Below are positions 437 to 9,483 of a DNA stretch of 54,063 nt, one piece after another (position 1 is the first letter of the stretch; each line of letters starts with the position of its first letter). Source of the DNA: Vallitaleaceae bacterium (GTDB lineage: Bacteria > Bacillota > Clostridia > Lachnospirales > Vallitaleaceae); assembly GCA_028277605.1 (NCBI GenBank), contig JANQFZ010000012.1, forward strand, positions 1-54,063. The letters run 5' to 3'. Below the pieces are notes generated by a model, which searched no databases, had not been told where the DNA came from, and saw nothing but the letters and a program-made list of their open reading frames with translations. Both the position numbers and the translations under genes were made by a program.

Positions 437-1159
437 CTAAACATTTGGTTTCATATTCATTATCGTATTGGTTATATTCGTTACCAATTTCATGAGCATA
501 TTATTTTCATAAAAGAAAATAGCATACTGAGATTGTTCAATAGCCTCGATGACATAACTATACTTTGGATTGGTTACAAGCAGAGAAATACCTAAACATA
601 CGAACCATATAATAACCACCCCTATACCTAAGCCAATAATCAAACCACCCAACTTATTAACCTGATTTAGTACGGGTAGCTTGCTTATAAGGTCAAGTAT
701 ATTAACAATAAGCCTAATGGCAAGTTTAACCAGAATAAATACTACAATAAAAGAAAGTATGTTAATAGTGACCGTCGCTAGTAAACTACCAATATAATCC
801 CCAATATGCTGCACATCTAATAGCTGATAAACCTCACTGTTATTATTCTCTAGCAGCAAATGTTGGATATAGTCAGGAAGCCCAATGTTATTAATAAAAC
901 TAATCTGTTGCTGCGGCGTAGTAACGTTTGCATTTGCTGGCTGAAGGTTCATTGTCTGTATAATAGAATTCTTAATAGCAGTATAAATACCTGTATGATT
1001 GATAATGAACCCACTAAAATATGTATAGATTTGAGAGGTTATAATAATTGCTACAATAAAAGATAAAAAATTAAATAGAGTTCTAATAAACCCTCTTTGA
1101 TAAGAAATAAATCCATTGATTAGTAGAATGATTATAACACCTATATCCAACCAATTCAT
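437..1159 (-). CDS. cvpA: CvpA family membrane protein
   Basis: A 240-residue integral membrane protein of the CvpA family. The family is named for colicin V production in E. coli, but its biochemical role in Firmicutes is not established. The N-terminus has the family hallmark, a short hydrophobic helix (about 3-18) followed by a YQRGF turn (residues 20-24) and a second helix (28-45). Two more helices lie near 124-150 and 170-195. The start is supported by a GGAGTGG ribosome site. It is the last gene of a four-gene minus-strand run, 36 bp after the DUF5711-like gene and just before a terminator. Family assignment is good; function is unknown. Confidence 0.8.
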   Translation of the reverse strand: MNWLDIGVIIILLINGFISYQRGFIRTLFNFLSFIVAIIITSQIYTYFSGFIINHTGIYTAIKNSIIQTMNLQPANANVTTPQQQISFINNIGLPDYIQHLLLENNNSEVYQLLDVQHIGDYIGSLLATVTINILSFIVVFILVKLAIRLIVNILDLISKLPVLNQVNKLGGLIIGLGIGVVIIWFVCLGISLLVTNPKYSYVIEAIEQSQYAIFFYENNMLMKLVTNITNTIMNMKPNV

Positions 1160-1195
1160 ATTCCAACCACTCCTTTCATTAAGGACATCCTGAAC

Positions 1196-2329
1196 TTATC
1201 TTATTTTTATTATTTCATAGTCGTTCTGATATACCATAATATAATCGTGTTTTAATGAATACACTTGTTTTATATCTTTTTTTAAGGTATATTCCCATTG
1301 AAGGGTACCATTCTTACTGAATTTTTTCAGAAAAATATCTGTGCCTATATAGAAGCTCTCTTTATCCACATTTAAATAATGAATACTGTGTGGAAACTCT
1401 TTCGTGTATATCATACTTCCTGTAAGATTATATATCTCCATCAAATCCTGACGATTTGAGGCTACATCTCCTTCATATATAATATAAGTTTCCTTATCAT
1501 TGAAAGCCAATTTTTTTATTTCATGCTCAAGAGCTATTTCTTTAATGCATTGAGGTTTTGGGGAAGTTTTATAAAAAAGAATCTTATTATCACCTACAGC
1601 TATGAGATGATCCTCCCCTAGAAATTTGATTTCTGGTACAATAGATTCTTCTATTATAAATGCAGCTTGTATTTGCTCTTCGTACTCCTTACCATTAGTA
1701 CTAAAATCAAAAAAAGTAATATTGGATTGAGTTGTATTATTTTTTAAATTTAGGTAGCTGGTGACTAAGCTTATTCCATCATTGGATAAATCAAAACCTA
1801 TAGGATATCCATCATTATCGAAATAGGTGACACGTTCAGCAATTATAGTTCCTTTATTATCATATATTTCAAGACTATGTTTTTTATTCTGCTCTAAAAG
1901 CACAGCAATATAACCATTGGTGTTAACATCAAACTGAATAATGGGATAACTAAAGCTGTATCTATGTATAAAGCCTTCTTTATTAAATAAAAATAGCTCT
2001 TTCCCATTAATATCTCCAACCGCAATATAATTGTCTTGTTTTATCATTTTAGGATTTTTAATATTGAGAGTTTTGTCCCAAATCAGCTTGTCTTCTTTTG
2101 TAATCATTGAAATACCATCTCTTGAACAACTTATAATGTTGCCATTTAGCGTATTAAAAGTAGCTTTATTCTCATTATCATACTCATAAGCCCCTATAAC
2201 CTCTATCTCTTTCTCACCAAAATGGATAAAGGCATTATGTTCTCTTGCTAAAAAAAATCCCCCAATAGCGCATAACACTAAAATAAATACAAGGATACCT
2301 AACAAGGGTTTTTTCTTTTGTTTCTTCAT
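1196..2329 (-). CDS. DUF5711-like membrane-anchored beta-propeller protein
   Basis: A 377-residue protein with a lysine-rich N-terminus and one transmembrane segment (about 9-27). The long extracytoplasmic part is made of repeated strands of the type 'value of X at time of Y' with DGIS, NGYIAV and similar turns, as in WD40/PQQ-like propellers. The layout and the position next to cvpA match what I recall as the DUF5711 family of Clostridia. The start is backed by GAGGTGAGGGC directly upstream. It lies 12 bp after the YkvI-like gene. The propeller fold is inferred from repeat texture, and no enzymatic motif is visible; a surface binding or scaffold role is a guess. Confidence 0.6.
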   Translation of the reverse strand: MKKQKKKPLLGILVFILVLCAIGGFFLAREHNAFIHFGEKEIEVIGAYEYDNENKATFNTLNGNIISCSRDGISMITKEDKLIWDKTLNIKNPKMIKQDNYIAVGDINGKELFLFNKEGFIHRYSFSYPIIQFDVNTNGYIAVLLEQNKKHSLEIYDNKGTIIAERVTYFDNDGYPIGFDLSNDGISLVTSYLNLKNNTTQSNITFFDFSTNGKEYEEQIQAAFIIEESIVPEIKFLGEDHLIAVGDNKILFYKTSPKPQCIKEIALEHEIKKLAFNDKETYIIYEGDVASNRQDLMEIYNLTGSMIYTKEFPHSIHYLNVDKESFYIGTDIFLKKFSKNGTLQWEYTLKKDIKQVYSLKHDYIMVYQNDYEIIKIR

Positions 2330-7502: not shown

Positions 7503-8648
7503 TTATTCTGCCTCTGGCAGAATTAATTTCTGTCCTATATAGATTCTATCTGGATTAGAAATGTCATTGAGTTCCTGGATTTTTGGAACCATTCCTTTCG
7601 TATGATAAAATCGAATGCTTATAGCATTTAAATTATCCCCAGATTCTATAACATATGTTTTTGGTATACTACCAATCATTTTAGCTGAGTCTTGTGCTTC
7701 ATCTCCTTGAGGGGTATCAGTATTATTATCGTCACCATCCGATACTTTTGGTTTCGTTTCTTCACTAAGACTATTTTCATCTTCTTTAGCTTTGGTTGGC
7801 GATATGTTAACATCTGATACCTGCTGTTTAAGTTTATCATGATCTTCCGTTATGACATGCATGGTGGTCTGCATCTTTTTCATTTTTTCCATATTATTAA
7901 GTAAACCAATACCAATAATGATACAGATGATAACCAGCGCACCACTTATTAGTGAAAGCATATGAATTAATTTTTTTTGATAGTGTTCTTCCTTTCGTCC
8001 GTGTTCTATCCTTCGATAAGCTCTGACTACATCCTGCTGATTATTTTCTTTCCCATCTGTATTTACTATTTTATAATCCATCATATAATCGTGCATCAGA
8101 GTATTCTTGTCATAAAAAATATAAAACCCTGTTTTTTCATGAAGTTCGTTATCCTTAGATATGAAAAATGCATGTTCTTTTTCTACAGGATCAATAACAT
8201 AAAGGACTTGGTATTGATTTTGAAACTGTTTCTGATGCTGTTGACTTAAAAAGGAAGTAAGCAAAATTCCATACCCAGGCTGAGTACACATCCAGCCAAC
8301 GATACTACAGTTTTTAAAATATTGATCCGCTTTTTCTCTAGCATATATCCATGTGTCATCTGTTATGAATAAATTACCGTTCTCTTCCTTAAGAAACTTC
8401 GCTTGAACAGCTCCCGATATGATTAACACAACTTCTTTTTTATATTGATAAACTTGTCCAACTAAGAATGCTATTTGTTCTTGACTCTTTTCCTTAGCGG
8501 CATATTGGTGTAGATAGGTATATGCATAATCCTCCATATATATTCTGTGTTCATTATTTGCGTCGCCAATCTGCTTGACATTTTTAGGCAGTGCTTGGAT
8601 TTTTTTGATCTTTAATTGACTATTAGGCTTATCATAAGTTTCTATCAT
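7503..8648 (-). CDS. Membrane protein with degenerate JAB/MPN-like domain and C-terminal LysM
   Basis: A 381-residue protein in three parts. Residues about 34-175 read like a JAB1/MPN fold: IYM start strand, E57 seven residues before G64, then IVGWMCTQPGYG (117-127), T131 and YVIDP (150-154), which follow the Rpn11-type order of IVGWYHSHPGFG, S and VVDP. The two metal-binding histidines are C121 and Q123 and the aspartate is L134, so the site cannot bind zinc in the usual way. A transmembrane helix follows (230-250), then a coiled coil (251-282), an acidic linker and a LysM domain (331-378) ending IGQKLILP. By the positive-inside rule the MPN-like part is probably cytoplasmic and LysM sits in the wall. 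It is a single gene, divergent from yyaC. LysM is certain; the MPN assignment is my reading. Confidence 0.75.
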   Translation of the reverse strand: MIETYDKPNSQLKIKKIQALPKNVKQIGDANNEHRIYMEDYAYTYLHQYAAKEKSQEQIAFLVGQVYQYKKEVVLIISGAVQAKFLKEENGNLFITDDTWIYAREKADQYFKNCSIVGWMCTQPGYGILLTSFLSQQHQKQFQNQYQVLYVIDPVEKEHAFFISKDNELHEKTGFYIFYDKNTLMHDYMMDYKIVNTDGKENNQQDVVRAYRRIEHGRKEEHYQKKLIHMLSLISGALVIICIIIGIGLLNNMEKMKKMQTTMHVITEDHDKLKQQVSDVNISPTKAKEDENSLSEETKPKVSDGDDNNTDTPQGDEAQDSAKMIGSIPKTYVIESGDNLNAISIRFYHTKGMVPKIQELNDISNPDRIYIGQKLILPEAE

Positions 8649-8907
8649 ATTTTACACACCCCGTAAATACATTAAATATAGGAAGATAATAACACATTAT
8701 GATTAAGAAATTTATCAAAGTCTGTTACATGTCCATAATTTTTATTCGTCATGTTTTATCTGTTATCGGCAGAATATCTTCATAAGCAATCATAAGTTAC
8801 AGTTCCCGATAGGGCTTTTTGGCTTGTATGTAAAGTTCTATGTCTTTTGTTTAAATTTATTTTATTTAGTAAAGACTATTAAGACATACTGTTTTAGGTG
8901 GTGTTAT
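8649..8907. other. Divergent intergenic region upstream of yyaC
   Basis: No gene is seen. The region must hold the promoter of the LysM gene (minus) and of yyaC (plus). I could not identify a convincing sigma-A or sporulation sigma promoter. In-frame codons from a TTG at 8824 extend yyaC but have no ribosome site. Confidence 0.35.
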
Positions 8908-9483
8908 ATGAATACAAGAATCAAACAGAAAAAAGCCTACTATTATAACTCAAACGAAACTTATTCTCTATCTGAATTTAGCCATACATTACATGCCATG
9001 ATACGTAAAAATTTAACTCCTAACTGTACTCTTATTATTTTATGTATTGGTACAGACAGAGCTACTGGTGATGCTTTAGGACCTCTTATAGGTTATAAGC
9101 TCAAAAAAATGTATTTAGATAATATTGTTATATTAGGAACTTTAGAGCATCCTATTCATGCGAAAAACATTGAAGAAACTATAACTTCAATTAAATCCTG
9201 CTATTCTAACCCCTATATTATAGCTATAGATGCTTGTTTAGGAAAAATGGACCATATAGGCTATATTAATATTGGTGAAGGTTCTATTCATCCTGGTGCA
9301 GGGGTCAATAAAAAACTTCCTCCTGTGGGTAATATGTTCATCACAGGTATTGTTAATTTTAGTGGCTTTATGGATATTCTTATTCTTCAAAATACACGAT
9401 TAAATATTGTTATGACAATGGCTGATTTCATTAGTGTTGGTCTTAGGCGAGCAATCAATCTTTTAAAAATGCATGTCTCCTAA
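8908..9483 (+). CDS. yyaC: YyaC family spore protein (DUF1256)
   Basis: A 191-residue member of the YyaC/DUF1256 family, annotated as putative spore protease and related in fold to the germination protease GPR/HybD group. Conserved blocks are CIGTDRATGDALGP (nucleotide- or metal-site-like loop), AIDACLG, and PGAGVNKKLPPVG. The start is the ATG at 8908 because AGGTGGTG is five to eleven bases upstream; the longer TTG frame at 8824 has none. A terminator follows. A role in late sporulation is expected from the family but its reaction is not proven. Confidence 0.85.
   Translation: MNTRIKQKKAYYYNSNETYSLSEFSHTLHAMIRKNLTPNCTLIILCIGTDRATGDALGPLIGYKLKKMYLDNIVILGTLEHPIHAKNIEETITSIKSCYSNPYIIAIDACLGKMDHIGYINIGEGSIHPGAGVNKKLPPVGNMFITGIVNFSGFMDILILQNTRLNIVMTMADFISVGLRRAINLLKMHVS

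Follow-up and report, generated by a model that had tools for sequence, protein, structure and literature searches.

JAMM/MPN+ deubiquitinases (Rpn11, BRCC36, CSN5 and the archaeal CsRpn11) resemble the protein described here in fold and in the order of motifs, but our protein lacks their zinc ligands H, H and D and has a membrane helix and a LysM domain. MPN- scaffold subunits such as Rpn8 and CSN6 likewise have an MPN fold without a zinc site; they belong to eukaryotic cytosolic or nuclear complexes, whereas ours is a bacterial membrane-LysM protein. SipL and SpoVID are not known to have a membrane helix between their domains, the other domain of SipL is DUF3794, and unlike our protein neither contains an MPN domain. 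Both are LysM proteins of sporulation, as we propose for our protein, and according to the accessible part of one source the LysM of SipL binds SpoIVA in C. difficile while that of SpoVID does not bind peptidoglycan (PMC6436350). Bacterial operons of a ubiquitin-like protein (Ubl), E1, E2 and JAB protease were already known as such, as stated in an excerpt of an earlier study (PMC1779556). Bil systems (BilA-D) also carry Ubl, E1, E2 and JAMM protease in one operon, as do the clostridial Ubl operons considered below; they are anti-phage and soluble, and a LysM JAMM is not described for them in the available portion of the source (PMC11354881).

The gene studied here, which we call pseudo-JAMM, lies in a 54,063-nucleotide stretch of DNA from a Vallitaleaceae bacterium of the order Lachnospirales, analysed as a whole and referred to as the window. 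Its features are the following.

437..1159, minus strand: CvpA (Colicin_V) protein, in synteny with pseudo-JAMM in some members of the order (PF02674, 72.7 bits)
1196..2329, minus strand: DUF5711 protein, likewise in synteny with pseudo-JAMM in some members of the order (PF18975, 277.9 bits)
7503..8648, minus strand: pseudo-JAMM coding sequence, 381 aa, with pseudo-JAMM (MPN) domain, membrane helix, coil and LysM
7515..7655, minus strand: LysM domain, residues 332-378 (PF01476, 36.3 bits, cut-off 20.9)
7812..7901, minus strand: coil in the structure model, residues 250-279, putatively on the extracytoplasmic side
7902..7970, minus strand: membrane helix predicted by hydropathy, residues about 227-249, within one long model helix (204-279)
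8079..8561, minus strand: MPN domain, residues about 30-190
8244..8300, minus strand: former JAMM loop, residues 117-135, GW-M-C121-T-Q123-PGYG...T131..L134
8478..8480, minus strand: E57, position of the JAMM glutamate
8686..8691, minus strand: -10 element TATTAT, with TGn ahead at the end of the 21-bp spacer
8713..8718, minus strand: -35 element TTGATA of the same promoter
8745..8751, minus strand: TGACGAA, which differs from the 0A-box core at one position; a weak, single site
8824..9483, plus strand: yyaC homologue (DUF1256), divergent neighbour (PF06866, 202 bits over 8947-9435)

The preliminary description had read this protein as a JAB/MPN-like domain joined through a membrane helix to LysM, with the glutamate kept and the metal ligands lost. 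The predicted structure is indeed an MPN fold, its matches including the MPN- subunits Rpn8 and CSN6, and both the helix and the LysM domain are present. Of the JAMM zinc motif (E, H-x-H-P, S, D) E57 is kept, while C121, Q123 and L134 replace H, H and D, so that the domain combines an MPN fold with a degenerate zinc motif and qualifies as an MPN- pseudo-domain; the fold and the loss of the ligands are near certain. Hydropathy reveals no hydrophobic stretch other than the membrane helix, and the charge beside this helix, equal on both sides, does not fix the topology. Since no signal peptide-like stretch precedes the MPN domain, and given its homology to proteases of conjugation operons, this domain is probably cytoplasmic and the LysM outside; we infer an N-in/C-out topology and anchoring to the wall. 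A second MPN gene that could supply a dimer partner was sought in the same genome with PF01398, which matched only the window locus (10.6 bits). Two sub-cut-off matches to PF14464 (Prok-JAB) occur in this genome, at G000:C75:27783-27920 (L022) and G000:C66:53629-53757 (L023).

We then compared the former active site across a family alignment of 168 rows, a redundant set made of 63 database proteins, the window protein and ORFs from the loci retrieved. The frame of the GW...P block, predicted to be conserved among orthologues, is kept in this family, and the pattern of a glutamate, retained in 143 of the rows, with degenerate ligands is seen there too. Whether any orthologue retains HxHP had been raised as a question: H is found at both 121 and 123 in none of the 168 rows, but distant relatives in ubiquitin-like operons do have the motif. 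Position 121 is variable: H stands there in 50 rows, and the other residues include Y, Q, L and C. D occurs at position 134 in 45 rows. In the 69 rows that pass a 70% identity filter, the ligand columns rank only 62nd to 104th of 171 in conservation, and the best conserved blocks of the domain are residues 20-50 (2.73 bits) and 174-190 (3.0 bits). The loop 117-135, at 2.25 bits, lies slightly above the domain mean of 2.09, owing to G118, W119 and P124.

The relatives with intact sites surfaced as distant MPN proteins when the family alignment was searched against the whole class. Three genomes (G322, G136 and G329) contain JAMM-TM proteins in which HTHP, S and D are all preserved. The operons around them also comprise genes for a Ubl of YukD type (39.1 bits), an E1 (ThiF, 193), an E2 (UQ_con, 37.1) and a Prok-RING_1 protein (42.3); two of the three add a trypsin-like protease and another JAMM, and each operon has one JAMM with a LysM domain. 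The five HxH rows come from exactly the genomes that have an E2 (3 of 291 in the class). These operons lie at L054:6286-9746, L055:4244-11347 and L056:3962-12402; their JAMMs are membrane-bound, the Ubl ends in RLQPEITAG and in two of them an FHA part is fused to the E2. Alignment of the pseudo-JAMMs with seven intact JAMMs (L054-L056, L156 and L157 among their loci) gave an hhalign E-value of 3.6e-37 (probability 99.9) over 170 columns, running from an N-terminal LPxN block to a GFYxF block. The LPxN block and the membrane helix are common to both kinds, LysM is found by sequence or Pfam in four of the seven intact rows, and the order MPN-TM-coil-LysM is common to L054, L055, L056 and L156. 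The difference is that the intact proteins keep HTHP...S..D and sit in conjugation operons, whereas the window gene stands alone beside yyaC: its neighbours are yyaC and pepF rather than Ubl, E1 and E2 genes, and its genome has no E2 match. One genome, G526, carries both kinds as separate genes: L156 and L157 hold intact JAMMs, and the pseudo-JAMM is at L159, next to yyaC. Kinship is shown; as the MPN tree (49 rows) is unrooted, drawn by midpoint without outgroup and weakly resolved, the direction of change is left to inference, and we infer that the pseudo-JAMM derived from an active JAMM of the Ubl-operon type by loss of its site.

In B. subtilis, Spo0A activates spoIIG and spoIIE from sigma-A promoters whose spacers measure 22 and 21 bp. 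We scanned 93 regions upstream of pseudo-JAMM genes, allowing at most one mismatch per element; these were left of 104 labelled ORFs after dropping regions shorter than 120 bases or identical in their last 60 bases. A 21-bp spacing was found in 31 of the 93 regions and in 16 of 868 controls, the latter being upstream regions of mechanical ORFs of at least 150 aa from the same loci, many of them within operons. With TGn the numbers were 29/93 and 0/868, while the usual 17-bp spacing was seen in 7/93 and 75/868. Counted by protein cluster (60% identity), the 21-bp spacing occurs in 11 of 41 and its strict TGn form in 9, the scan not finding the latter in the other 32. The spoIIGA loci of the same order (L161-L190) show the same preference, with 21 bp in 19 of 30 and 17 bp in one, and spoIIGA of the window's own genome has TTGACA-N21-TATAAT (L173). 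The window gene thus has a long-spaced sigma-A promoter of the spoIIGA type, and this common spacer offers a simple signature with which to seek more early sporulation genes in gut Lachnospirales.

The 0A-box core is TGTCGAA (PMC3485338, accessible part), and TGTCRAA occurs in 32/93 upstream regions and 51/868 controls, overlapping the -35 box; the excess of TTTGACA can likewise be read as a -35 or a 0A box. TGTCAAA and CGACAG, from a k-mer search upstream, initially resembled Spo0A boxes; once the sites were aligned they resolved into -35 and -10 elements 21 bp apart, so that 0A boxes upstream of the pseudo-JAMM gene are only suggestive. A regex scan for sigma-F, -E, -G and -K sites upstream yielded at most a weak sigma-E excess (8/103; shuffles, mean 3.8, maximum 7).

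A yyaC gene lies within 900 bp upstream of pseudo-JAMM in 49 of 99 loci, divergently in 48 of them. Pseudo-JAMM is found next to yyaC on an Epulopiscium contig too (L145). In the window, the yyaC homologue may truly start further in, at an ATG close to 8910. In the available text of one study, yyaC is a sigma-F gene in B. subtilis, and a B. anthracis yyaC transposon mutant has collapsed forespores (PMC12700454). DUF1256 is found in 31 of 59 relatives, its matches being YyaC and, at lower scores, probably Gpr. DUF5711 follows within 800 bp downstream of pseudo-JAMM in 15 of 70 loci. DUF5711 and CvpA are directly downstream in many Lachnospiraceae loci and some 5 kb away in the window (437-2329). 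SpoIIM is reported missing in Lachnospiraceae in the accessible part of another source (PMC3416734); the idea that pseudo-JAMM might stand in for it was set aside.

The link to sporulation is strong. Among 59 relatives, the MPN domain and SpoIVA (PF09547) are each found in 39 (41 for the MPN domain if the LysM-only matches of G014 and G018 were counted): 38 genomes have both, 19 neither, one (G056) only the MPN domain and one (G024) only SpoIVA. G056 does have SpoIIGA. Comparison with SpoIIGA over cut-off gives 38 with both, 18 with neither and 1 and 2 discordant, G043 and G024 having SpoIIGA without an MPN match. Flagellin, used as a control and present in 52/59, is not coupled to the MPN domain: 34 genomes have both and 2 have neither, with 5 and 18 discordant. 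Across 295 Lachnospirales genomes, and among the matches listed, 199 have both pseudo-JAMM and SpoIVA, 68 neither, and 16 and 12 are discordant (phi 0.76, uncorrected for kinship); as these genomes are related, the counts are not independent trials. Here "neither" means appearing for neither domain, assuming that both searches covered the same 295 genomes, and sub-cut-off SpoIVA matches in G487 and G550 were left out, giving 211 rather than 213. Of the 28 discordant genomes among these matches, 18 are less than 90% complete and only 2 reach 97%, G428 (100%) and G556 (97%), which have SpoIVA without a pseudo-JAMM match. Pseudo-JAMM is also missing from large, near-complete genomes of the same family that lack SpoIVA, such as G006, G009, G014 and G016.

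The Spo0A-type promoter, the coupling to SpoIVA, a dead catalytic site and a pattern of conservation that does not centre on the ligands lead us to lean towards a predicted single-pass membrane protein that connects a cytoplasmic partner with peptidoglycan, without catalysis, early in sporulation. Expression would be switched on by Spo0A~P, either before division or in the mother cell; the MPN domain would stay in the cytoplasm, with the LysM outside binding the wall; a partner would be bound by the best conserved blocks (20-50 and 174-190) and not by the old active-site ligands; and, when the cell divides asymmetrically or during engulfment, the protein would staple a cytoplasmic complex to the wall. 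Linking to the wall is the weakest of these steps. More tentatively, and with somewhat less than even confidence, we suggest an origin: a membrane JAMM-LysM of a Ubl conjugation system may have lost catalysis and become a Spo0A-switched structural part of the endospore throughout the order, a prokaryotic counterpart, across the envelope, of the MPN- scaffolds.

LysM membrane proteins typically serve envelope maintenance, and pseudo-JAMM could be a general envelope or division protein of growing cells, merely lost alongside sporulation in reduced lineages. Its -10 and -35 elements of vegetative sigma-A type would fit, as would a helix and coil that in three homologues resemble DivIC (PF04977, under cut-off), but the gene is absent from near-complete genomes without SpoIVA such as those named above, flagellin shows no such coupling and the 21-bp spacer common with spoIIGA is rare in controls, which makes this account unlikely, if the most serious competitor to a sporulation link. 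Improbable to a greater degree is a coat or basement-layer assembly factor whose LysM binds protein and not peptidoglycan: it draws on the behaviour of the SipL and SpoVID LysM domains (PMC6436350, accessible part) and on the strong co-occurrence with SpoIVA, yet here the LysM sits behind a membrane helix, so that a cytoplasmic MPN domain would leave mother-cell SpoIVA on the opposite side, and Pfam (E <= 10) gave no DUF3794 or SpoVID N-terminal match in the protein.

Two further accounts concern the MPN domain itself. Its kinship to Ubl-operon JAMMs, and the few genomes with both systems (G526, G534), might suggest a pseudo-deubiquitinase that has given up cleavage but still binds a ubiquitin-like protein or conjugates of it; with E2 in just 3 of 295 Lachnospirales genomes (one match weak), the window's not among them, against pseudo-JAMM in 215 of 295 among the matches listed, we consider this very improbable. 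We give least credence of all to a metalloenzyme still active through altered ligands: the frequent E57, the H at position 121 in some rows and the H-x-C plus S and D of distant relatives L063 and L064 speak for it, but the variability of 121, the minority of D at 134 and the middling rank of the ligand columns argue otherwise.

No description of an MPN-LysM protein was found in the literature covered, which mostly excludes subscription journals and preprints. If the proposed non-catalytic link is correct, pseudo-JAMM would be an undescribed early-sporulation gene found order-wide, bacterial deubiquitinase-like domains would have been taken out of enzymatic service and turned into scaffolds, like those of the proteasome lid and the COP9 signalosome, and a ubiquitin-like pathway would be tied to spore development.

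Eight distant rows of the class-wide search have partly changed sites (L057-L060, L061, L062, L063 and L064). L057:3176-4192, L058:6381-7520 and L060:6181-7293 represent another MPN-TM-LysM family, in which GWYG[IV]R replaces the zinc motif, as it does in L059; flaG adjoins this gene in L057 and L058, is about 5 kb off in L060 and is absent from L059. L061:6126-7001 and L062:6911-7768 are MPN-TM proteins without LysM, with STHP at the site and the motif STHPDVHPTEQD, adjoining ligA and gatCAB. L063:704-1870 and L064:5991-7160 are JAMM-TM-LysM proteins outside any Ubl operon seen, with H-x-C for H-x-H and S and D kept, and could be active with altered ligands. Finally, L158:1574-5279, from a Lachnospirales genome, is a distinct Ubl operon composed of an E2, a small Ubl-like protein, an E1 and a JAMM with GWYHTHP.
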